From the IMG/VR virus record IMGVR_UViG_3300024433_000024, positions 1-35,756 of that record: a stretch of 35,756 bases of DNA. One strand, 5' to 3'. The position numbers were made by a program, and so were the translations under genes. The DNA is from a virus. A model generated the notes under the pieces. It ran no database searches. It was not told the origin of the DNA and saw nothing but the letters and a program-made list of their open reading frames with translations. Of this stretch, positions 4,283 through 35,756 are shown piece by piece (within the stretch, counting starts at the first letter, position 1; the number at the start of each line of letters is the position of its first letter).

Positions 4283-5018
4283 CACTTACCCTCCAAACTA
4301 ATGCAGCATACTCTTGCGCCGCCCGCGACCTGGAACGTTTCTCCCAGATCGTCAATCCTTCCGCCGCGCATTGTTCCAAGACCGTCGCCCGGTGGATGGG
4401 TTTCAAGATTGCCTTGTCGTCGTATTTGGCACGGAGATCGACCAACGTCGCCCGGCTCTCCGTGGTCACACTATCGAAAAACGTCGGTAAAATTCCCAAC
4501 ATGCTGCCCTGCCAGCCGTACCGCGTTTTCAACGTGGCCAGCGTTTCCATCGTCCTGACGACGCCCTCGGTACACAGATAGTTCGTCGCCGTAGGCACGA
4601 TGACCAGATCGGACGCGCAAATCGCTGCCTCCTGGAGGCCGCCTACAGAGGGAGCCGTATCGAATACCATAAAGTCCACGCCATTCAACCTGGCCAGCCG
4701 TTCGCTGATGACGCCCAAGTTGAATCCCTCCGCATAGAGCACGATTTGCGCCGTGGCGGTGCGCTTGTTGCCGGGCAGCAGCCATAATCCCTTCCGGCCT
4801 GTTTTGCGTACTACATCCACCGGCGATTGTTCATCCACCAGCAAACGATAGATTCCCGGTTCATGTTTCATTCCCAACGAGATCGCGCACTGGCCTTGCG
4901 GATCCAGGTCAACCAACAGCACCTGGCAGCCCTTGAGAGCAAGACCATGCGCCAGCGTCACCGCTGTCGTAGTCTTGCCCACGCCCCCCTTTTGGCTTGC
5001 AACCGTGATAGTTAGCAT
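4272..5018 (-). CDS. parA: ParA-type partition ATPase
   Basis: 248 residues from the ATG at 5018 (GGGCGGG upstream); an upstream in-frame start at 5078 would run into the inverted repeats and is less likely. The deviant Walker A motif K-G-G-V-G-K-T-T-T is at residues 10-18, with its signature first lysine. Walker A' is D-L-D-P-Q-G-Q (about 36-42) and Walker B is V-F-D-T-A-P-S (about 118). There is no N-terminal HTH, so this is the short type that relies on a separate DNA-binding partner, as encoded next to it. It drives segregation of the plasmid or prophage DNA over the nucleoid. Flanking arrays at 3785-3876 and 5041-5290 are the natural candidates for centromere and operator. Confidence 0.92.
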   Translation of the reverse strand: MLTITVASQKGGVGKTTTAVTLAHGLALKGCQVLLVDLDPQGQCAISLGMKHEPGIYRLLVDEQSPVDVVRKTGRKGLWLLPGNKRTATAQIVLYAEGFNLGVISERLARLNGVDFMVFDTAPSVGGLQEAAICASDLVIVPTATNYLCTEGVVRTMETLATLKTRYGWQGSMLGILPTFFDSVTTESRATLVDLRAKYDDKAILKPIHRATVLEQCAAEGLTIWEKRSRSRAAQEYAALVWRVSDAT

Positions 5019-5040
5019 TTTTACCCGCCCTTCATTTTTT

Positions 5041-5290
5041 TCAACTGTCAGTAGGTCCCGACAGTTGACGACAGTCATGTGTCGTCATGTGTCATACGTC
5101 ATATGACAGTTAAAAGCCGATTCTGTCAGACCTGGGGACACTTATGACATGACGACAGTTGTAATATTTTAACTGTCGTCAGTGTCATGCTGTCGAGGAG
5201 TACGACAGTTCCCCTATTTTAGTGTCATATGGCACATGACACATGACGACAGATCATAAGTGTCATAAGTGTCATGTACCATATGACAGT
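5041..5290. repeat. Dense cluster of TGTCAT/GACAGTT repeats; candidate origin or operator-centromere
   Basis: More than a dozen copies of TGTCAT/ATGACA and ACTGTC/GACAGT in both orientations fill 250 bp between parA and the DUF3987-like gene, whose 3' end they enter. Clear elements are perfect 10-bp arms GACGACAGTT (5151-5160) and AACTGTCGTC (5171-5180) around an AT-rich spacer; 9-bp arms TCAACTGTC (5041-5049) and GACAGTTGA (5060-5068) just upstream of parA; and two copies of CATATGACAGTT. Such clusters are typical of iteron origins or of partition operators. The AT-rich spacer inside a perfect dyad is compatible with an unwinding point. Confidence 0.75.
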
Positions 5291-6840
5291 TCGTTCTCTC
5301 TATTCAAGCGATAGTACATCGCCTTACCTTTTTGTTTGCTCTCCACCAGATCAGCTTCTTCCAAATCAAGCAAAGCTACCTTGGTTTTGCTGCTTTGCAT
5401 ATTCAATCCCCGGTAAATATCCCGTGCTGTATTCCATTCGTCTTCCGATGCATCCAACCACATCAAGATTTTAGTCTCGGCTTCATTTTGCCTCGATTCG
5501 GCCAACATTCCAGGTAGGCGATGTGCACTAGCCCGGCAGGTCTCGATAAAGTTTTGTGCCCGTGCCCAATGTTTGAGTGCGATTACTGGCGCACCGACAC
5601 CGTTCCAATCGAGCGCAGCCAGGAGGATGCTCACTTTGAGCGTGTGCTCGGCTAACCGGCCATAGACTCCCCACAGGCGAATGTCTACGGAGGTGGGGGG
5701 AACGAGCAATGTGTGCATTGTTGCCTGAAGATACGTTTGGTAGGCTTTGAAGACTCCCTCGCCTAGACCCACGCCGAGTGGTTTTGCTGGTTTCTGATAC
5801 GTTGATTCTGGCAGGTCATCTTCGCATAGCCGAGACAAACGATCTTGTATAGCTTTCGGCATCTCGGTCCGCGTCCGACTGGGCATTTGCCATATTGGTC
5901 CACTTTCCGGCGTTATTAACAGAAAGCGCGGCCACAGCCCAGTGTACCACAACGTATCCACATCGGCCTTTTTCAAATGCCAGGGGGTTGTTGCTCCTAG
6001 AAATGTCCAATATGCGTTTCTGACTGTCGAGCGTCCGGTGCCCCTTGTCTGTCTGCTAATGTACTCGCTGCAATCGTATAAGCGCAGCAAAGCCTCTCCC
6101 ATTCCGATGTTATAATCTTTACTCAGTCCCACAAATAGAGAGGATGCCTCGTCCAAGCATACGCCGCGCTGAGCTGCGTATGCTTGCCCTTTTTGCCAGT
6201 CTGCCATGTCTAATCCATCGAGCATCACTGGTTGCTTTCCGGCTAGTTCGTCCATCATCGCTTCTGGCGTCATTTCGCCAGGCAGCAATAGGTAACGCAT
6301 TACCAGTCCGGCCAGAAAGCGAGGGATGTTCAAGCCGGTGGACTTAGCGTACAATGTGGTAGGTGCGATCTGTAGTATGGCCAGATTCGGGAACAAGTCT
6401 TTGTGTGCCAGACGCAGCACCAAGCGCCTGGCAATGGCCAGGCTGACCAGCCACAATCCTCCGGCCTCGTGGAAAATGTCAGGTGTTAGTGGACTAACGG
6501 ACTTCGCGTAGCTGATATACTGATCTAACCAAATCCCTACACCTTCAGCCAGGCCGTCCGCCATTCTTGCCGACGACGGCAGAGAGGGCACCAACGAGAA
6601 CGAAGGTTTTTTGCGTGGTGACCGTCGTGGGTTTTGTTCTAAAATCGTTTTTAAGATCGTCTCGCCATCGCTCATCTCTGCGCACATTTCCTGCAGCACC
6701 GTGATTCGCCCACGTCCATCTGCGTCACTCACGGCCTGCGCAATCCGCAACCACGGCGTCGGCAGGTTTGCGATCAAGTCATCTTCGACGTTCATCCCGG
6801 CCACCATCCGGGCGATGATCCAGGCATGCTGTGTGTCCAT
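5272..6840 (-). CDS. DUF3987-like replication protein (helicase-like, degenerate P-loop)
   Basis: 522 residues, start ATG at 6840 with AAGGAAGG upstream. The layout resembles the DUF3987 proteins that accompany primases in phages and plasmids: an N-terminal helical region, a RecA-like centre and a C-terminal winged helix (about 455-515, KILMWLDASEDEW... to AMYYRLN). The expected Walker A position reads APTTLYAKSTGL, which lacks the usual GxGKS/T. The Walker B-like segment GVCLDEASSLF is preserved. ATP hydrolysis is therefore doubtful, or uses an altered loop. It lies directly after the primase in the same transcript and is probably its replisome partner. The family name is from memory. Confidence 0.6.
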   Translation of the reverse strand: MDTQHAWIIARMVAGMNVEDDLIANLPTPWLRIAQAVSDADGRGRITVLQEMCAEMSDGETILKTILEQNPRRSPRKKPSFSLVPSLPSSARMADGLAEGVGIWLDQYISYAKSVSPLTPDIFHEAGGLWLVSLAIARRLVLRLAHKDLFPNLAILQIAPTTLYAKSTGLNIPRFLAGLVMRYLLLPGEMTPEAMMDELAGKQPVMLDGLDMADWQKGQAYAAQRGVCLDEASSLFVGLSKDYNIGMGEALLRLYDCSEYISRQTRGTGRSTVRNAYWTFLGATTPWHLKKADVDTLWYTGLWPRFLLITPESGPIWQMPSRTRTEMPKAIQDRLSRLCEDDLPESTYQKPAKPLGVGLGEGVFKAYQTYLQATMHTLLVPPTSVDIRLWGVYGRLAEHTLKVSILLAALDWNGVGAPVIALKHWARAQNFIETCRASAHRLPGMLAESRQNEAETKILMWLDASEDEWNTARDIYRGLNMQSSKTKVALLDLEEADLVESKQKGKAMYYRLNRENELSYGT

Positions 6841-6855
6841 ATTCCTTCCTTTATT

Positions 6856-7923
6856 CTACCCGCCCAACTTTGCCAACTCGAACTCGACCCAGGCACGGAC
6901 GTTGCCGTCGTACTTTGTCAGGAACTCGTTTGGATCGTCCCCGGCCGGGACTTGCACCGAACGGAGGCGTCTCGATAACGCCCGCCATTGCTCGGTGCCA
7001 CGTGCTCCAGCTTGATCTGGATCGAAGCGTACCAGGATATGATGCGCCATTAAAAAGTGCCCCCACCAAGGGCGTAATGTTTCCGGCCAGATACTAGCTG
7101 TCCCTGTGCTGACCACATCCACCAGGTCGTTTGCTTCTTGCCAGATAGTCAAGGCATTGAATTCGCCTTCGTCCAGGAAGAGCGTTTGGTGCTGGCACAA
7201 CCAGTCAACGCCATATAGACCTGCTCCACTATATCCGTCTGGTACACGGAGCTTGACGTACTTGCCCCATCGGTCGGCGCGGCCTCGGCATACCTTAACG
7301 TATCTCAGCGTTTCGCCATTCTCGCTGAAACAAGGGATGGTGATTCCACGTGGAATCCACATAGCGTGGCGACGACCGTCGTCTGGAGATGTGATTCCCC
7401 AGTTCTCTAACTGCTCGTATCGCTTTTTTTTCGGTTGGAATCCCAACCGCCATAACCATAGAGTATCATTCGTAAAGCCGCGCTTGTAGAGATACGTTCT
7501 GGCTCGCTCGCCCACGTCCTGCCATAGCAATGCTTGGCAATCGTGAACCAACGCCAACGCCCGGTCTTGCCACACTTCCGGTGGCATCCGATGTGAGATT
7601 GCTAGCCTGAGCAATGGCTGTATGCGTCCGCTTGGTTTGGGCAAGTCACTCGCGCCCAAACGGTGACATGCTTCTAGGAAGACCACGTGGTCGTGTTGTA
7701 TCACCCAGTCGATCACGTTTCCCCCAGCTCCACAGCCAAAGCACTTCCACTTTCCGTTATCGGGCGTCACTCCCAGACTCGGCGTTCGCTCGCGCCCACC
7801 TGCATGAAAGGGGCAGCGAAAGAACAGCCAACGCCCAGATCGTTTTGTAGGTGGGCCCAGGTCGTGTTCTATCAGAGCTGATACGTCTACGTTTTGCAAA
7901 ATCGCATCACGATCGACAGTCAT
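6856..7923 (-). CDS. DNA primase, CHC2 zinc finger plus Toprim
   Basis: 355 residues. The N-terminal CHC2 zinc finger has Cys37, His40, Cys61 and Cys64 (FFRCPFHAGG, then KWKCFGCGAGGN), as in DnaG. After a linker, the Toprim core shows LFLDEGEFNALTIWQ (about 245-260, catalytic Glu) and the RFDPDQAG acidic motif (about 300). The C-terminal helicase-binding domain of DnaG is absent and the protein is short, as in phage and plasmid primases. It makes RNA primers for phage or plasmid replication together with the next gene. A promoter-operator region lies just upstream; the start ATG at 7923 has only a weak ribosome site. Confidence 0.88.
   Translation of the reverse strand: MTVDRDAILQNVDVSALIEHDLGPPTKRSGRWLFFRCPFHAGGRERTPSLGVTPDNGKWKCFGCGAGGNVIDWVIQHDHVVFLEACHRLGASDLPKPSGRIQPLLRLAISHRMPPEVWQDRALALVHDCQALLWQDVGERARTYLYKRGFTNDTLWLWRLGFQPKKKRYEQLENWGITSPDDGRRHAMWIPRGITIPCFSENGETLRYVKVCRGRADRWGKYVKLRVPDGYSGAGLYGVDWLCQHQTLFLDEGEFNALTIWQEANDLVDVVSTGTASIWPETLRPWWGHFLMAHHILVRFDPDQAGARGTEQWRALSRRLRSVQVPAGDDPNEFLTKYDGNVRAWVEFELAKLGG
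7344..7355. repeat. Palindrome TTCCACGTGGAA (copy 2, inside the primase gene)
   Basis: Second intragenic copy, about 5.2 kb from copy 1 and 5.0 kb from copy 3. The three copies bracket the replication and partition block. Candidate ParB site. Confidence 0.5.
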
Positions 7924-8137: not shown

Positions 8138-9349
8138 CTACACTCCGGGCAAAGTCTCTTGTTGTAGTCGTGCCCGTTTCCGTTGCTGACCCGTGGGCAT
8201 CAAGGCCATTGCCGCTGCCTTGATGCCCGGATCGTCGGGATCGTCCAGTACCCGATCGGTATAAATCTGGGTCACTGCCAAACTCGAATGACCCAGCAAA
8301 TGCATGATCTCCAACAAATCAACTTTTTTCCTCGCCGCTTTCATCTGTTCGACTCGCAGCCTGGCCCCGGCATGCCGCAATCCGTGAATGTGCGCTTTCT
8401 CAGGAGCCACACCCGCCCGCCGCGCGTACTTTTTGAGAATTGCATTGACAGTGGTATTGGCCAGAGGTTTGGAGTGATCACTCTCGTAACCGGTGATGCG
8501 CGCGATACGTGTCGGGTCGATCTGAATAAAGATGTGATCGCCCGCTTGCATCTCATCGAGTGGCCGGTCGTCGGCTACCAGGTACGCGCAAATGGCCTGG
8601 TACGCCATTCTCTCCAGGACAGCGCGACGAATGTCGCCACCCTTGTACTGGTAAGTGACGTTAAAATCGCCGTCGTCCCGTTCCTGGATTTCCCCCCAGC
8701 GGATGCCGATGACCGCCGAAAAGCGCAGACAGGTAGTGGCAATCGTATAGAGGAGGGCAAAGTCCCTTTTCCCTCTCAGGCAACCGGTATTGATTGCGCC
8801 GAGGATCGCTTTTAGCTCTGTCGTCGAGGGATATTGCGCGCGGCCGTAAGGTGAAACCTTGACCCGCTCGATAACGTTGAACGGATTGCCCACCCCGGAT
8901 TGCCCAGGGTGGCTAAGTTCCCACAAAGACACAAATTCGCCGGTCGCTTTTTGCAGAAGATACTTGTGAATGACAAAGTTGTAGAACTCGGAGAGAACGG
9001 CGAGCTTGCGGTTGCGCGTTGCATCGGCTAGTGGGCCGCGTCCCGTCTTGGTACATTTGCCTTCCGTGGCCATCCAATTGTCATATTCGATAGCCATCGC
9101 CGGCGAGACATTCCAGGGACTAGAACAGGCCCATTTGAAAAAGGCACGCAGATCGGACTTGTACGCAATCGCCGTATTCTGCGATCCCGACTTGCGCAGC
9201 TTGCTACTCAAAAACGCATCTTTGGCTTGCTCCCAGGCCAGCCACAAGGCTGCTTCGTCGAATACGATAGCACCGGGGAAAAGCGTCTCGATTTGTCGAA
9301 TGGCCAACGTGGCCGTGTTGGTTTCTACGATTTCAGACTCTATTGACAT
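8138..9349 (-). CDS. Tyrosine recombinase (first of two)
   Basis: 403 residues. An N-terminal SAM-like core-binding domain lies at about 38-135. The catalytic domain has the complete set: Arg209 (TTCLRFSA), Lys236 (YQYKGGD), His322 and Arg325 (IHGLRHAG), His354 (LLGHSS) and nucleophile Tyr363 (QIYTDR). It is intact and probably active. Its start overlaps the end of parB by 10 bases, so it is co-expressed with the partition protein. That position, within the maintenance operon and away from the attP-like sequence, suggests a dimer or multimer resolvase for the plasmid form. A role in integration cannot be excluded. Confidence 0.9.
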   Translation of the reverse strand: MSIESEIVETNTATLAIRQIETLFPGAIVFDEAALWLAWEQAKDAFLSSKLRKSGSQNTAIAYKSDLRAFFKWACSSPWNVSPAMAIEYDNWMATEGKCTKTGRGPLADATRNRKLAVLSEFYNFVIHKYLLQKATGEFVSLWELSHPGQSGVGNPFNVIERVKVSPYGRAQYPSTTELKAILGAINTGCLRGKRDFALLYTIATTCLRFSAVIGIRWGEIQERDDGDFNVTYQYKGGDIRRAVLERMAYQAICAYLVADDRPLDEMQAGDHIFIQIDPTRIARITGYESDHSKPLANTTVNAILKKYARRAGVAPEKAHIHGLRHAGARLRVEQMKAARKKVDLLEIMHLLGHSSLAVTQIYTDRVLDDPDDPGIKAAAMALMPTGQQRKRARLQQETLPGV

Positions 9350-11292
9350 TCTTTTTCCTCAAATGGCCATTCGATAGCCTTAGGCCAGCCATACCAAGGT
9401 TTCTTCCCTTTGACATATTTATCCCAGCTAACGCGAATCCATCGTTCGTCGTCTCCCGTCGCCGGGTTGTAAAGTGTGAAAATCTCTCGACTTTTTGTTG
9501 CTTTTCTTTCGCTCGCGGCCGCGCTCAATAACGTCGCGATCCGCGCATCGCTCCATTCATCCCACGTATTCAGAACATAGCGCAGCAATTTATCCAAATC
9601 GTAATGTTTGTCTCGAGGGCGTGTGTAGGGCAGCCAACGTAACATCGACCACATTCCAGACAGACTATTGCCGTATGCAGTGAAGCCACTAATCATCGTT
9701 CGCAGCCAGCGGATCACCGTGTTTTTACGTTCCTGTTTATCCTCGGCAAACGTGATCCAGCCCGTAGCCACCAAGTCAGGCGCGTAGGCAAAACGAAACA
9801 TTTCGCATCTGGGCACGATGCAAACGGCGGTCTGGACTTTTTGACCATCCACGTCTGTCCCATCCTCGATTTGAATCAAAGCCCAGAATTCTGGTCGCGA
9901 CTTATACTTGTCGATTGGATGATTGGCTATCTCACACTCGCCATCGTGATTCAATTCACAAAAGGTGCACCACTGCGCTTGAAAGTGATCGGTGACCAAA
10001 GGACAGGTCGCACCGTCATCTGCTTGCTCACAGACCTGGCGAAACGCCGCCAAGCGCTCACGGTGCTTATCTCGTTCTCGTGTGATGCTTTTTGCCTTTC
10101 CGTGCTCTATTCTGCGTGTCGCTGCTTCTACCAATTGCACATAATCGCTGACACTTTCGACGTAGGAAAAGTCACCCTCTTGTACTTTGGAGTCTGTCAA
10201 ATCGAAACGATAGTACGGCCGCAAGCCAATGGCTACTGCGTCGGTAGGCAAAATACAATCCCGACACGTCGTCGGTGATGACTGGCCAATCCAACGCTCG
10301 CACGGCGATTGCCAGCCATCGAATGTCTCTTGGGGTGCATCCACGCCAAAAAAGATGCAATTCTTACAAATGCGCCGAGTAGCCTGGGCAACTTCGTCTG
10401 TCCACCAATTCGAGTAAACTACGTAGTAACCCCAGCCGGCCGGATCACGTAATAGCCCTATAATTGTCTTAATGTCAGACATACCGACAAACGACTTTTT
10501 TCCCAACAATTTACGTGCGCTCGAATTTCGCTCTGTATCCAAGAGCCGCTTCACTGCCTGGCTGAGTATTTCCTTAGGTTGTGTCTCCAGGAGGTGGCGG
10601 ATAACGATTTGCCCATTGCGTTCGTCGGCTGCTATTGTTTTCTCCTCGACACCGGCGAACCGCTCGGGGTCCAAAAATTTCTTGATCTGCCGTCCTACGT
10701 TTTCTACTTGCCGACTGGTCAGCGGTATCCCTTTTTGCTGAATTGCCTCCAGGTGGGTCGCCGCTGTTTCCTGTACAGGCACAGGCAAACCGCTCAGCGC
10801 CCTGGCGTGGGCAAAAGTGAATACGCGCGTATTCACCATCTCTTGTATCCGAGGAGCCACGTTCAGGAGCGCTAACCGTTGTTGTACCCAGCCTTGGCTC
10901 TTGTTCAATTGTCTGGCCAGTTGCCGTTGGCTGTACCCGTGCAACTCCATGAGACTTTGCAGCGCATTGGCTTCTTCCAGTGGAGTCAAATCTTCTCGAT
11001 GCAAATTGTCAACGATTGCTATCTCACATAGCGCCTTCTCATCGCCATGTTTCACCTGGCAAGGTGCCGAGTCCCACTCGAGCAATTTCATGGCCAGCCA
11101 GCGTCGTTCGCCGGCGATTAAATCATACCATCCCGGTTCGCTATTCACCGCTACCAACAGCGGATTCAGCAATCCCCTTTCGCCAATATCCGCCGCCAGT
11201 TCAGCCACCGAAGCCAATGTGACTCTCCCCTTCGTTCGTGGTTGAAACTTTCCTGGCCTAATAGTGTTTATTTTGATGTCTACGATTTCCAT
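9340..11292 (-). CDS. parB: ParB/Spo0J-like protein with long cysteine-rich C-terminal extension
   Basis: 650 residues, about twice the usual ParB length; ATG at 11292 after AAGGAG. Residues 1-110 form the ParB N-terminal CTP-binding domain (GERR at 61-64; NLHREDLTPLEEA at 96-108). An HTH follows (about 115-140, YSQRQLARQLNKSQGWVQQ). Residues about 250-650 match no family I know and hold many Cys and His residues (for example ICKNCIFFG, TTCRDCILP, WCTFCELNHDGECEIANH), implying one or more zinc or Fe-S sites. The first part suggests clamp formation at CACGTG-centred parS-like sites, of which several occur in this genome. The extension may be a regulatory or effector domain. There is no cognate ParA next to it. 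Confidence 0.85.
   Translation of the reverse strand: MEIVDIKINTIRPGKFQPRTKGRVTLASVAELAADIGERGLLNPLLVAVNSEPGWYDLIAGERRWLAMKLLEWDSAPCQVKHGDEKALCEIAIVDNLHREDLTPLEEANALQSLMELHGYSQRQLARQLNKSQGWVQQRLALLNVAPRIQEMVNTRVFTFAHARALSGLPVPVQETAATHLEAIQQKGIPLTSRQVENVGRQIKKFLDPERFAGVEEKTIAADERNGQIVIRHLLETQPKEILSQAVKRLLDTERNSSARKLLGKKSFVGMSDIKTIIGLLRDPAGWGYYVVYSNWWTDEVAQATRRICKNCIFFGVDAPQETFDGWQSPCERWIGQSSPTTCRDCILPTDAVAIGLRPYYRFDLTDSKVQEGDFSYVESVSDYVQLVEAATRRIEHGKAKSITRERDKHRERLAAFRQVCEQADDGATCPLVTDHFQAQWCTFCELNHDGECEIANHPIDKYKSRPEFWALIQIEDGTDVDGQKVQTAVCIVPRCEMFRFAYAPDLVATGWITFAEDKQERKNTVIRWLRTMISGFTAYGNSLSGMWSMLRWLPYTRPRDKHYDLDKLLRYVLNTWDEWSDARIATLLSAAASERKATKSREIFTLYNPATGDDERWIRVSWDKYVKGKKPWYGWPKAIEWPFEEKECQ
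10817..10836. repeat. 20-bp perfect palindrome GTGAATACGCGCGTATTCAC (copy 1)
   Basis: This perfect palindrome lies inside the parB coding sequence (codons for V-N-T-R-V-F-T). Its central 18 bp recur exactly at 34097-34114, next to a terminator at the other side of the genome. An 18-bp palindrome shared by two distant places is most simply a binding site for one protein. See the separate finding. Confidence 0.8.
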
Positions 11293-12430: not shown

Positions 12431-12474
12431 GGTTTGGGTCCGTGAGGTCCGGGGTTCAAGTCCCCGCGCCCCGA
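12431..12474 (+). other. attP candidate: 3' half of a tRNA-Pro(TGG) gene
   Basis: The sequence fits the anticodon loop TTTGGGT (anticodon TGG), a variable region, a perfect T-arm (CGGGG / TTCAAGT / CCCCG, 12450-12466), the acceptor strand CGCCCCG (12467-12473) and discriminator A (12474). The matching 5' half (CGGGGCG...) is not upstream and no CCA follows, so this is a tRNA fragment. Phages that integrate into tRNA genes carry exactly such a 3' portion as attP to restore the host gene. It lies 220 bp upstream of the integrase. The rest of 12325-12693 contains no gene. Confidence 0.75.
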
Positions 12475-12693
12475 CTGAGGGTCACAAGGACGGCAAAAAC
12501 GGCAAACCTTGTGGCCTCTAGTCATTAAAAACCGTTCAAATCCTGAATTTCCTTTCTATTCTGGCGCACATGGTTCTCCGTTCCGGTTTGAGAAAACGAA
12601 GATTCTCGTTATTGTTCCTACACGCTAACATTCTCAAAAGTCATCGAGGGCTTTAATCTCGCTCGGCGTGCCGAGCAACTCTCACTACATACG

Positions 12694-13593
12694 TTGGCCG
12701 ACTACAACAACTCGTTCCGCAAATTCCAGGCTTATCTCGACGGCAAGGATCCACCAATCGACGAAATCACCGTCCGCCAGGTGCGCCAGTTCCTAGATCA
12801 CCTCGGCACAATTGTCGTCGCACCGGCAGGCATCGCACGGCGACCAGCGAGACCGCTGAGCAAAAAGACGATCCTCAATATCCACACCGGTCTCTCTGCG
12901 CTCTGGACGTGGGCAATTAGAGAGGAGTATGCGAGCGACCACATCATTCGCCGCATTAGACCAGCCAAGCCAGAACAAAAAGCGATCGATCCTATGTCCA
13001 GAGAAGACATTGAACTCCTCATATCCGCTTGTGATTATTCCCGTCCATACATCCGGCCAGGAAAAAAGCAGTGTTCGCACGCCCGGCCTACCGCCGAGCG
13101 TGACAAGTTGGTCATCCGTTTTCTATTGGACACGGGCGTTCGGGTTAGCGAATTATGCGGCCTGTGCATCAAAGACATCGATCTGCGAAACAATCGCGTC
13201 AAGGTCTTTGGCAAAGGGGCCAAAGAGCGCATCATTCCCATCGGCAAGCGGCTCTGCAAGGCTATCTGGCGTTACCTGGCTGCCCGTCCGGACGCCGATC
13301 CGGACGATCCATTTCTTCTGAACAACACAGGAGAGGATAGCATAAATCGCTTCTCTGTACGCCGAGTGCTGAAACGCCTGGGCGAGCGGGCCGGTGTACG
13401 AAACGTCTATCCCCATCGTTTCAGGCACACGTTCGCGCTTAGCTACCTTCGCAACGGTGGCAGTGAATTTACGTTGACGCGCATCCTCGGCCATAGCACT
13501 ATGGAGATGACCCGGCGCTACGCTAAAATCGTTCAATCCGACGTTCAGCAAGCGCACAAACGAGCAAGCCCGTTAGATAACTGGAAACTATAA
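12694..13593 (+). CDS. XerC/D-like integrase, start codon problematic
   Basis: 299 residues from a TTG at 12694. The catalytic set is complete: Arg150 (DTGVRVSEL), Lys174 (GKGAKER), His241 and Arg244 (PHRFRHTF), His267 (ILGHS) and Tyr276 (RRYAKIV). The core-binding domain clearly begins earlier: codons 12625-12693 read on in frame as a typical N-terminus (LTFSKVIEGF...ARRAEQLSLHTLA), yet no ATG, GTG or TTG precedes them after the stop at 12589. An ACG at 12622 sits where an ATG would be expected. The true start may be non-canonical, or the start was lost by mutation. It is the probable integrase for the adjacent attP, and a terminator follows. Confidence 0.85.
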   Translation: MADYNNSFRKFQAYLDGKDPPIDEITVRQVRQFLDHLGTIVVAPAGIARRPARPLSKKTILNIHTGLSALWTWAIREEYASDHIIRRIRPAKPEQKAIDPMSREDIELLISACDYSRPYIRPGKKQCSHARPTAERDKLVIRFLLDTGVRVSELCGLCIKDIDLRNNRVKVFGKGAKERIIPIGKRLCKAIWRYLAARPDADPDDPFLLNNTGEDSINRFSVRRVLKRLGERAGVRNVYPHRFRHTFALSYLRNGGSEFTLTRILGHSTMEMTRRYAKIVQSDVQQAHKRASPLDNWKL

Positions 13594-22859: not shown

Positions 22860-23135
22860 TCAGATAAAAGCAACTTGCACATTTGGTGTCGTGCCAGTGA
22901 TGGTAGCATAAATACCTTTCGCACACACAATCGGGTGCGCCGGGCAAAAGCTATCACTCAGGTTCGCCGCGACGCCGAGTTTGGCCACTACCGTGCCGCT
23001 GCCCTCCGTATTGTCATAGATCGTCACCGTCGCCGCGTCCGCAGCCCCACAAATATTGACGGCGACCAGCGCGCCACTCGATGCCTTGACCGAACCGCTT
23101 GCAGTGAGTGCCTTGTGTCCAACTGACGCAAACAT
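22860..23135 (-). CDS. Small beta-rich head protein
   Basis: 91 residues. Mostly beta strand with Ala, Val and Gly (GHKALTASGSVKASSGALVAVNICGAADAATVTIYDNTEGSGTVVAKLG). The layout resembles small phage proteins encoded between decoration and connector genes, perhaps a capsid accessory or decoration protein. Its start directly follows the stop of the E3-binding-like gene. No family is assigned. Confidence 0.6.
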   Translation of the reverse strand: MFASVGHKALTASGSVKASSGALVAVNICGAADAATVTIYDNTEGSGTVVAKLGVAANLSDSFCPAHPIVCAKGIYATITGTTPNVQVAFI

Positions 23136-23567
23136 CTATAGCACCTCCTCTTCCGGCGTTGGCTCTTCCGGCGTTGGCTCTTCCGGCGTTGGCTCTTCCG
23201 GCGTTGGCTCTTCCGGCGTTGGCTCTTCCGGCGTTGGCTCTTCCGGCGTTTCCGGTTCGACAATTTTCTTTATATCCAAAACCGTGATTCGCCCGTCTTT
23301 GCCCGTACCGGTGATGGTCGTCAGATCGATGTCGTGAACTTGTGCCAACTTGAACGCTGCCAGCGTGTACTTGAAATCGCCCTGGTCGATAGCTATTTCC
23401 TTCGGCTTCGATAACTCTGAAAGCGGCACGGTATACTTGTAACCGGCAACCATCACGATCACGATACGATCACCGTAAACTCGGTAGGATAGCCAGCCTC
23501 CACGCACATCCTTGTCTTGCCGTTGGAGCAGGGCGAGCGCATTGCGCAAAATTTCTCGTTCGTCCAT
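23136..23567 (-). CDS. Head-region protein with E3-binding-like domain and PTPEE repeat tail
   Basis: 143 residues. Residues 1-65 are unknown. Residues about 70-103 (LAQVHDIDLTTITGTGKDGRITVLDIKKIVE) match the peripheral subunit-binding (E3-binding) motif of 2-oxoacid dehydrogenase E2 proteins, with its hallmark Asp-Leu...Gly-Thr-Gly...Asp-Gly-Arg-Ile and Asp-Ile/Val. The remainder is a tandem P-T-P-E-E repeat ending EEEVL. Such small helical domains (E3-binding, HeH/SAP-like) also occur in phage structural proteins as docking modules, with acidic Pro-rich tails as flexible linkers. A role in linking head parts or binding a host factor is inferred. Confidence 0.65.
   Translation of the reverse strand: MDEREILRNALALLQRQDKDVRGGWLSYRVYGDRIVIVMVAGYKYTVPLSELSKPKEIAIDQGDFKYTLAAFKLAQVHDIDLTTITGTGKDGRITVLDIKKIVEPETPEEPTPEEPTPEEPTPEEPTPEEPTPEEPTPEEEVL
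23149..23250. repeat. 15-bp tandem repeat (about 7 copies) encoding P-T-P-E-E
   Basis: The unit CTCTTCCGGCGTTGG is repeated with almost no variation, including at third codon positions. That indicates recent slippage expansion rather than selection for the peptide alone. Copy number is expected to vary between isolates. Confidence 0.9.
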
Positions 23568-34070: not shown

Positions 34071-34091
34071 GGGCGGTCACGAAGACCGCCC
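34071..34091 (-). terminator. Terminator after the 92-aa gene
   Basis: A perfect 8-bp stem GGGCGGTC / GACCGCCC with loop ACGAA; on the minus strand it is followed by TTTTTCTTTTTATCG. It ends the transcript from the promoter at 34856-34884. Immediately upstream lies the palindrome at 34097-34114. Confidence 0.92.
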
Positions 34092-34096
34092 ATAAC

Positions 34097-34114
34097 TGAA
34101 TACGCGCGTATTCA
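34097..34114. repeat. 18-bp palindrome TGAATACGCGCGTATTCA (copy 2)
   Basis: Exact match to the core of the palindrome at 10817-10836 in parB, including one further base (C) on the right. It lies between the stop of the 92-residue gene and the terminator at 34071-34091. Candidate protein-binding site. Confidence 0.8.
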
Positions 34115-34126
34115 CCGCGCGCACAT

Positions 34127-34405
34127 TCACCACACCAAAGCTGCGCTGGGGGCGAGCAGGTCGGAGCGAGGCACGTTGGCCAGGCTACCGGCCAGCATCC
34201 ACACGGCTACCAGGTCGGCGTCGTCCAACACCTCGATCATCGCCGGCAGTTCCAACCGTGCCCGGACGATCTCTTCTTCGTCCACTTTTTGTCCCTTGCC
34301 ATAGGCGCCCTCGAAAGCCAGGAAGAGACGAAAGCGGTGCGCTTGTTTTTGACCTTCGTCGTTGAGCTGATACCGGACGTAGACGTATCCTTTTTCTTCA
34401 TCCAT
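34127..34405 (-). CDS. Hypothetical protein (92 aa)
   Basis: 92 residues, ATG at 34405, overlapping the end of the upstream gene by 8 bases. The first 35 residues look beta-rich (KGYVYVRYQLNDEGQKQAHRFRLFLAF) and the rest helical and acidic (VDEEEIVRARLELPAMIEVLDDADLVAVWMLAG). No known motif. Last gene of its transcript. Function unknown. Confidence 0.65.
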   Translation of the reverse strand: MDEEKGYVYVRYQLNDEGQKQAHRFRLFLAFEGAYGKGQKVDEEEIVRARLELPAMIEVLDDADLVAVWMLAGSLANVPRSDLLAPSAALVW

Positions 34406-34691
34406 CGTAGGCTACTCCATTATAGGCCAGGGTGGCCATCGCGTAAGAGATGTCCAGCGTCTCGCGCAGGTCTCGAGGCAGCGCGGCGACGTCCACGTCG
34501 TGTCGTGGCAACAGGTGACCGGACAACAACCCACTCTCGAAACGCAACGTTTCGCGCAACTGGTAGAGATTTTGTCCGGCTTTGTCCAGGCGGGCCAGGA
34601 CTAGCTCTTGCAGCAGTTCCATCTGCATCTCTGCATCGGCTACCAGGTTGGCCTGGTACTTGGTCAACTTTCTCGACTTTCCTTTGATCAT
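34398..34691 (-). CDS. Hypothetical helical protein (97 aa)
   Basis: Start chosen at the ATG at 34691 (AAGGA 11 bases upstream). A GTG at 34718, directly after the leader stem, would add nine residues (MFLDKGIRK). The N-terminus is very basic (MIKGKSRKLTKYQANLV) and the rest helical with many Leu (MQMELLQELVLARLDKAGQNLYQLRETLRFESGLL). This could be a nucleic-acid-binding regulator. It is the first gene after the structured leader. Confidence 0.6.
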   Translation of the reverse strand: MIKGKSRKLTKYQANLVADAEMQMELLQELVLARLDKAGQNLYQLRETLRFESGLLSGHLLPRHDVDVAALPRDLRETLDISYAMATLAYNGVAYDG

Positions 34692-34722
34692 TTTGCGTAT
34701 TCCTTTATCCAGAAACACAAAA

Positions 34723-34849
34723 GTCCCCTAGCAGTTTCGCCGGGAGTATGCAAACTCTGACGGCGTTCTTCGACCACTAGGGGACCTTTGCCAACAATAT
34801 GAGATTGTAAACCGGCACAAAAAATGCCGTCTTCGAGTCTGCATACTCA
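34723..34849 (-). ncRNA. Structured leader or small RNA with paired hairpins / operator pair
   Basis: Starting about one base from the predicted start site, the minus strand carries GAGTATGCAGACTC (34848-34835). Ninety-one bp away, centre to centre, it carries the matching GAGTTTGCATACTC (34757-34744). Each can fold alone (GAGT/ACTC stem) with loops complementary over five bases, and together they form a long duplex strengthened by GACGGC/GCCGTC. A crossing stem GTCCCCTAG (34785-34777) / CTAGGGGAC (34731-34723) is followed by TTTTGTGTTT, like a terminator. The order A-B-A'-B' means pseudoknot or mutually exclusive folds. As DNA, the two dyads could equally be looped operators, the first lying at +1. 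Confidence 0.6.
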
Positions 34850-34855
34850 CCTACA

Positions 34856-34884
34856 ATTATAGCACAGGTGAGGGGCAAAGTCAA
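34856..34884 (-). promoter_or_regulatory. Strong sigma70-type promoter of the 34691-34127 unit
   Basis: Minus strand TTGACT (34884-34879), 17-bp spacer, TATAAT (34861-34856). It lies in the gap just after the stop of the gene at 34888. The predicted start near 34849 coincides with the first dyad of the structured leader, so repression at +1 or RNA-based control is likely. Confidence 0.85.
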
Positions 34885-34887
34885 GGA

Positions 34888-35079
34888 CTATTCGCTCCCA
34901 ATCTTCAGACTCGAACGAATGTCACGCAAATTTTCCATAGGCAAAGCCTGAAATCCACTCTGCATTATGATCTTCGCTATCTCACTCGCCAACGGGTAGA
35001 ATACTGCTGGCGATTCTTGGAGATCGACGAAATCTTTTCCCGTGATGCACAGTTGATCGCCGTCCACAAACGCTTTCAT
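34888..35079 (-). CDS. Small conserved phage protein (63 aa)
   Basis: The ATG at 35079 follows the upstream stop by one base (TAGAATG); a GTG at 35094 would add five residues and overlap the upstream gene. Sequence MKAFVDGDQLCITGKDFVDLQESPAVFYPL then a helix (ASEIAKIIMQ) and polar tail. The first 40 residues are identical at nucleotide level to 1-120. It looks like a compact beta-alpha module. No family was recognised. Confidence 0.65.
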   Translation of the reverse strand: MKAFVDGDQLCITGKDFVDLQESPAVFYPLASEIAKIIMQSGFQALPMENLRDIRSSLKIGSE

Positions 35080-35080
35080 T

Positions 35081-35386
35081 CTAGTTGTCCTCACTTCTTT
35101 CGTCTCCGGCCGGTAATTCCCGTTCGGGCAGGACGACGCCCCACACCGTGATCGGGCGTTTCTCCAGCACGTTCACCGCCCGTCTCGCTACTTCCTCGGC
35201 CACCGGCGTGATCGAATAGATTGCAGACGCGCCATAGAATCGCGTGAACGGCTCTTGGCCACCCGTCCCGGGAACGTCCACGCGCAAGAATGTGCCCCCA
35301 GCGATGGGCTGCTCGGTCACCCGGCCGGCGATTTGCGCGTGGCCAAACAGTTCTACGATTGCCCAGATTTCAAAAGTTTCGCTCAT
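35081..35386 (-). CDS. Conserved phage protein of unknown function (101 aa)
   Basis: The ATG at 35386 is followed by FEIWAIVELFGHAQIAGRVTEQPIAGGTFLRVDVPG, then FTRFYGASAIYSITPVAEEVARRAV. This is the pattern of a small protein family found in many phages and prophages, known to me only as hypothetical. In the left copy of the repeat this whole gene is replaced by an unrelated sequence, which marks it as a swappable accessory gene. The tail after residue 80 is variable and acidic. Confidence 0.75.
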   Translation of the reverse strand: MSETFEIWAIVELFGHAQIAGRVTEQPIAGGTFLRVDVPGTGGQEPFTRFYGASAIYSITPVAEEVARRAVNVLEKRPITVWGVVLPERELPAGDERSEDN

Positions 35387-35390
35387 CGTT

Positions 35391-35618
35391 CTACCTTTCT
35401 GTTGTCAGATTGTGTTCCATCGATAAATCGCGACGTTCTCGCGCCCAGACCAGTTTTCCACTACGCTTGACGGCATAGACGTACTTTTCGACGTTTACCA
35501 GACCAGCGGTGAACTTTTCTCTAACCTCCTCGATTTGCTCTTTGCTCAATTCACTAAAAAATCTGATTTGCTGTGCTGGAAGCGCAAATTTATTGCCATA
35601 CCATCGTTTGACGTTCAT
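35391..35618 (-). CDS. Small conserved hypothetical protein (75 aa), right copy
   Basis: Same length and start as the protein at 442-669; the ATG at 35618 has GGAGG upstream. Differences are scattered and mostly conservative, as between two alleles or recent paralogues. It is transcribed leftward ahead of 35081-35386. Function unknown. Confidence 0.7.
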   Translation of the reverse strand: MNVKRWYGNKFALPAQQIRFFSELSKEQIEEVREKFTAGLVNVEKYVYAVKRSGKLVWARERRDLSMEHNLTTER

Positions 35619-35756
35619 TACAGTTCCTCCAAAATGGGAAGCGGCGGTTGTGGCCCGCGACCAAAAACTTAGGCCCCTCTCAGGAACAGGTTTCCGGCCC
35701 GCTTGCGCGCGCTTCCCTCGCTTAAAGCGAGAGGAAGGCCACGATCCGGCTCTCCG

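Follow-up and report, generated by a model that had tools for sequence, protein, structure and literature searches.

C4/CI-type RNA switches are known from phages P1 and P4 and from enterobacterial prophages, and they make up a single Rfam clan. Among plasmid antisense RNAs, CopA/CopT and ColE1 RNA I/II act through kissing loops: their rods end in hairpin loops that are complementary to each other. In P1 C4 (RF01695, with c4-a1b1 as RF03163), a promoter, a1b1, a 77-nt stem-closed antisense RNA, a2b2 and icd follow one another on a single transcript, with a2b2 at the ribosome site of the small ORF icd according to the P1 annotation. In P4, the CI antisense domain is flanked by a complementary seqA upstream and a complementary seqC downstream (PMC4825925), and in the Gifsy-1 IsrK–STnc1160–orf45/anrP system an upstream RNA opposes a downstream element, so that a small ORF's ribosome site becomes free (PMC4825925). 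The leader analysed here is read from the minus strand of an IMG/VR phage record of 35.8 kb, the whole of which (35,756 nt) we call the window, and it carries three matched elements, A, B and C, ahead of a small gene. The original prediction held that no family with such a layout was known, which was too strong, since P1 C4 and P4 CI share the A-B-C layout. We consider the leader a probable C4-like antisense switch (probability about 0.68) belonging to a new, sequence-unrelated family, and by analogy with the described systems we infer its action in trans, its processing and its role.

All parts of the leader are read on the minus strand, from a promoter, TTGACT-17-TATAAT (34884–34856), that matches the consensus at 11 of 12 positions and has a TG (TGTGC) before its −10 box, to the start codon (ATG, 34691) of a 97-aa gene, which sets the 3′ limit. 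Element A, a hairpin at the 5′ end (GUGAGUAUGCAGACUC, 34835–34850), is a putative target copy, or decoy, that pairs with element B, the apical hairpin GAGUUUGCAUACUC (34744–34757), an anti-Shine-Dalgarno sequence predicted to pair with either A or C. The inverted arms GAGTATGCAGACTC (34848–34835) and GAGTTTGCATACTC (34757–34744) are complementary at 13 of 14 positions and lie 91 bp apart, start to start; the A:B stem is lengthened by S1b, in which GACGGC (34826–34831) pairs with GCCGTC (34765–34760; GCCGUC in the RNA, from fold prediction). A second stem, S2, joins GCAAAGGUCCCCUAGUGGU (34773–34791) to ACUGCUAGGGGACUUUUGU (34717–34735) over 19 bp, and it contains the crossing stem in which GTCCCCTAG pairs with CTAGGGGAC (34731–34723), followed by TTTTGTGTTT. 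S2, which is supported by covariation and folding and is not a conserved terminator, closes a 75-nt rod domain (34717–34791), the proposed antisense RNA, and the same rod is predicted in relatives. In the rod state, CGCCG of the S1b 3′ strand is predicted to pair with CGGCG below the B hairpin. Directly 5′ of the rod lies a hairpin, H2 (ACAAU...AUUGUU, 34793–34808), recognised by eye and unscored, and H2-like ACAAC/GUUGU hairpins were seen by eye in most relatives. A third copy of the motif, GGAATACGCAAA (34703–34692), overlies the Shine-Dalgarno sequence of the downstream gene and forms element C (GGAAUACGCAAA, 34692–34703), which is assigned by its complementarity to B. The putatively controlled gene is a small ORF (34398–34691) of 97 aa from the ATG, or 106 aa from a GTG at 34718, and its product belongs to no known family. 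Every element that had been described beforehand (the promoter, the dyads, GACGGC/GCCGTC and the crossing stem) is thus present, on the minus strand, and folds beyond shuffled chance; the layout stood as drawn but was incomplete, the third motif copy over the Shine-Dalgarno sequence and the conserved rod having been missed.

The predicted folding energy is −52.2 kcal/mol (z −4.55) for the 135-nt leader, a stability reached by 1 of 200 shuffled sequences, and −41.6 kcal/mol (z −4.50) for the part ending at the second dyad, reached by 0 of 200; the plus-strand fold is unremarkable (z −1.67). The two folds differ, the shorter RNA forming one long A:B hairpin with S1b and the full leader forming S2 around B. 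These folding predictions leave pseudoknots out, and a pseudoknot holding both S1 and S2 is possible because their core strands do not overlap.

Searches with the leader DNA and with the downstream protein gave no relatives, while a search with the large terminase (TerL) did recover them. Scanning the records of the TerL relatives for a promoter followed by a long stem yielded three leaders of the same plan and different sequence, in all of which a third copy of the A motif covers the Shine-Dalgarno sequence of the next gene (GGAGCCGGAAAA-ATG, GGAGTCGGAAAC-ATG and GGAGACGCGAA-ATG). An A-B-C detector gave more members with near-constant spacing relative to the start codon, C at −9 to −13, B at −60 to −70 and A at about −156 or −175; with the spacing fixed, 12 start codons passed in 0.48 Mb searched on both strands, and none passed in six dinucleotide shuffles. 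A covariance model, R1, was built from an 11-member alignment on S2 only, with A outside the model, and it found six further members (G016b, G017b, G466a, G466b, G486a and G486b), all six of which carry an A complementary to B as well as a C complementary to B. In total the family comprises 17 distinct instances in about 12 related uncultivated phages; an eighteenth instance (G061) has a key identical to that of G008b, and G473 is a second record with the two leaders of G014. Detector matches L195, L235 and L147(+) were dropped as having either no such spacing or no rod, and L390 (G476, 12874–12996), a weak R1 match (E 1.5e-6) with no recognisable A-B-C set, is perhaps a diverged or broken family member. 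Among bacterial genomes, the S2 pattern gave 35 matches, none with a convincing A-B-C order; the pattern of the short type returned known members and chance matches and nothing else, isolate phages and plasmids gave no match, and a 14-mer was too short for use in scanning viral sequences. In a host search of 400 genomes from the phylum of an Anaerolineae MAG, neither TerL nor R1 matched, with 9 candidates scored per genome for R1. A published description of the family was not found in the open-access literature, a scope that leaves out most subscription journals. In one relative (L141, G008, 4314–6887), the TerL match is split in two by an ORF with LHPYVLGAWLGDGSS, which by its sequence looks like an insert resembling an intein or a homing endonuclease.

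Comparison of the members revealed extensive compensatory change. In A4, a MAFFT alignment in which 11 members are compared from the rod to the start codon, S2 spans 14 consecutive column pairs with 99.3% of cells paired and double changes in 11 of the 14, and B:C spans 11 column pairs with 98.3% paired and double changes in 8; sliding the alignment by one to three columns lowered pairing from 98.9% to 35–45%. Across all 17 sequences, A:B was paired in 92.4% of cells, with a score of 0.926 against 0.22 shuffled and at most 0.13 slid and double changes in 12 of 14 pairs, and B:C was paired in 97.3% (0.787 against 0.17 shuffled and at most 0.10 slid). Double-change cells numbered 82 for A:B against 22 shuffled and 53 for B:C against 13 shuffled, with edge pair columns weak and kin sequences counted separately, and the A:B counts are inflated because the register of A was picked by complementarity. 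Over a 10-mer, B and C have no mismatch in 16 of 16 other sequences and two in the window. The sequences of A, B and C vary while their pairing is kept, a three-way complementarity across 17 sequences, and this comparative evidence marks the leader as an RNA device built on three matched sequences, in which B would pair with either A or C. Strong compensatory change in the homologues bears out the original prediction of an RNA element that has a crossing stem and paired hairpins whose loops are complementary, and so the outcome that it had named as its refutation was not observed.

The same variation bears on whether A and B are instead two DNA operators for a looping repressor, as had also been proposed. 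Both are near-palindromic, with one mismatch each (consensus GAGTATGCATACTC), and they form the sole pair of this kind in the window, 91 bp apart with the first at the transcription start. However, A, B and C change in concert with their complementarity maintained, C is a half-dyad placed exactly over the Shine-Dalgarno sequence, S2 covaries with G-U pairs included, and B always sits at the rod tip; the operator reading is therefore unsupported, and we find it hardly credible.

In all 17 leaders the −10 box is preceded by TG plus one base and lies 5–11 nt before A, so the transcript should start with the A hairpin in every case. The S2 domain measures 70–81 nt across members, and a rod built of an outer stem of 13–21 pairs and a middle stem, and tipped by the B hairpin, is predicted in 13 of 13 folded sequences, at −39 to −55 kcal/mol, with the four others looking alike. 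Predicted A:B pairing amounts to −22 to −31 kcal/mol, or −40 to −54 kcal/mol for the full stem, whose S1b extension is predicted in 13 of 13 examined sequences, and B:C pairing amounts to −19 to −23 kcal/mol, except in the window (−8.4 kcal/mol, owing to its two mismatches). B:C is the weaker of the two pairings in 12 of 13, and thus the default in cis could be ON. A prefix ending at B is predicted to fold as A:B in 13 of 13, with 9–10 of 10 pairs formed. At full length, the energies of the A:B and S2 states differ by no more than 5 kcal/mol in 8 of 13 (−59.2 and −61.6 in the window, −81.8 and −82.0 in G002), and S2 is favoured by 7–12 kcal/mol in five; the completed rod with B at its tip is at least as stable as the A:B state in 11 of 13. 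Such energies would suit a purely cis leader switch, with A:B on and B:C/S2 off and with transcription speed, ribosomes, a protein or a ligand as the trigger, since A:B and S2 are near-isoenergetic in most members, early A:B folding is obligatory, A:B outweighs B:C, and every part lies on one transcript. No conserved core resembling a ligand pocket was seen, though, and the behaviour of the keys also speaks against a switch confined to cis.

The leaders G003, G008a and G008b are 92–97% identical outside the key and only 67–71% identical within it, A, B and C having changed together, so that the key is replaced wholesale between near-identical leaders. Two cassettes with different keys occur in each of six genomes (G008, G014, G016, G017, G466 and G486). 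When each B was paired with every C, the cognate C gave the best pairing in each row except that of the window, at −19 to −23 kcal/mol against mostly −6 to −13 kcal/mol for non-cognate pairs. The B of the window pairs with its own C no better than with foreign C elements; its own translational block may therefore be weak and its lock partly eroded, and the window is best read as a family member with a weak C arm. Wholesale change of keys and two keys per genome are expected of recognition between molecules rather than of a ligand pocket, and a purely cis switch appears unlikely to us.

For the C4-like antisense switch that we prefer, sequence, covariation and fold predictions show a transcript that begins at hairpin A, continues through the S2-closed rod with B at its tip and ends with C on the ribosome site, B being complementary to both A and C. 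During transcription A would capture the emerging B, which would leave C free; once S2 was completed, the rod would display B at its tip. The rod, either alone or as a 70–80-nt RNA cut from the transcript, might then pair B with C and block ribosome binding, and it might also bind the A of new transcripts, whose own B would in consequence no longer be captured. Translation would then be limited to the earliest transcripts in a cell; later ones, or the transcripts of a superinfecting phage whose key is identical, would be shut off, and switches with different A/B/C keys would be deaf to each other. We infer the antisense step of the rod and the counteraction by A from P1 C4, P4 CI and Gifsy-1 IsrK. 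A broader proposal, which we put forward tentatively and at slightly less than even odds, is that these leaders are antisense-RNA locks that evolved as a family of their own, with keys that can be exchanged and that diverge between near-identical backbones under selection for superinfection immunity or incompatibility; phages of the group would carry two mutually deaf cassettes, each guarding a small protein that is not an antirepressor.

A terminator/antiterminator, in which S2 terminates transcription unless A:B forms, or an HK022 put-like RNA, whose hairpins modify RNA polymerase, had been suggested for the same stems. In the window S2 does end in UUUUGUGUUU, and A:B and S2 are energetic alternatives. 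However, S2 is conserved in relatives that have no U-run: it ends in GGGCUCGCGCCAUCG in G003 and G008a/b and in GGGCUUGUGCUAUCG in G014a, and the terminator reading is accordingly unsupported. The U residues that close S2 pair with its 5′ strand, and the position of C over the Shine-Dalgarno sequence would be left unexplained by either mechanism. Put-like antitermination is disfavoured further by the want of positive evidence, the window having no Rfam match of any kind, and we judge this pair of explanations very improbable. Premature Rho termination following a translational block is possible.

The controlled proteins are 61–148 aa long, and several belong to one family with the pattern V-x-L-x4-C-x-L, the others being unlike it. 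The first downstream proteins gave no meaningful family match in Pfam or PHROGs and include no recognised antirepressor, and the predicted structure of an 82-aa controlled protein (pLDDT 82) matched no fold in the PDB. The cassettes are stand-alone units close to tail genes or TerL, in some cases with TerL on the other strand. This setting, with two cassettes per genome in six phages, would fit a type I toxin-antitoxin-like or superinfection-exclusion cassette, a movable accessory gene made up of a promoter, an RNA lock and a small harmful protein, and the P1 gene in the corresponding position, icd, carries the annotation of a cell-division inhibitor. Type I antitoxins, however, are not on the same transcript as their gene, whereas the lock here shares its transcript with the gene, and no antisense promoter was noticed in the leader of the window. 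The proteins, moreover, match no toxin family, and the one predicted structure matches no known fold. Such a cassette is possible though doubtful; being a statement of role, it is compatible with the C4-like antisense switch.

Several further features were noted in the window. On the minus strand at 34091–34020, a strong terminator (GGGCGGTC..GACCGCCCTTTTT) is followed by a second near-consensus promoter, TTGACA-16-TATGAT, upstream of a holin-like gene. The palindrome GTGAATACGCGCGTATTCAC occurs twice, within a parB-like ORF (10816–10835) and just beyond a terminator (34096–34115), and it is a candidate parS for the phage's own ParA/ParB; an inverted-repeat cluster around TGTCATATGACA (5077–5291), upstream of a parA-like gene, represents possible operators or a partition site. 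At about 12447–12476, a tRNA 3′-end-like sequence, GGTTCAAGTCCCCGCGCCCCGA, lies near a tyrosine integrase gene (12694–13593, plus strand) and is a candidate attP, and a second integrase-like gene lies at 8138–9349. A tandem repeat with a 15-bp period (23133–23267), present in seven overlapping copies, encodes a run of PTPEE units in a small protein from the structural region. The ends of the record (1–806 and 34960–35754) are repeats of each other, 94–100% identical but not exact copies, which would suit the assembly of a circular or permuted genome, about 34.95 kb long, from two strains.

Compared with the described systems, the leader shares with P1 C4 a stem-closed 70–90-nt domain containing a stretch complementary to a small ORF's ribosome site on the same transcript (B:C being weak in the window) and a second target copy upstream of this domain, near the promoter. 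It differs from P1 C4 in having one contiguous key of 11–14 nt (17 of 17) instead of two short keys (a′ and b′), in a rod unlike that of C4 with the key in an apical hairpin, and in the lack of a recognised antirepressor among the first downstream proteins. The C4 model RF01695 did not match the window or 13 relative loci, while the controls P1 and P4 matched at 68.8 and 74.9 bits; RF03163 and the isrK model RF01394 matched neither the window nor its relatives but did match the P1/P4 controls, and R1 in turn matched neither P1 nor P4. With P4 CI, the leader shares complementary targets on both sides of the antisense domain; P4 CI, however, matches both RF01695 and RF01394 and is described as acting by premature transcription termination, whereas here C covers the Shine-Dalgarno sequence. 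As in IsrK, an upstream RNA would oppose a downstream RNA and free the ribosome site of a small ORF, although IsrK is a separate short RNA made by its own terminator, and no conserved terminator was seen here between A and the rod. Complementary loops at the tip of a rod are shared with CopA/CopT and ColE1 RNA I/II, which are transcribed from opposite strands, whereas A, B and C lie on one transcript. The 17 naturally diverged matched sets offer a ready test of how the specificity of RNA immunity evolves and a source of orthogonal translation locks, and the small proteins under control add new candidates for factors in phage decision or exclusion. What is new here is the three-part logic with an unrelated sequence and fold, in other phages and often twice per genome: the leader works like C4, yet it lies outside the C4 family as Rfam defines it.
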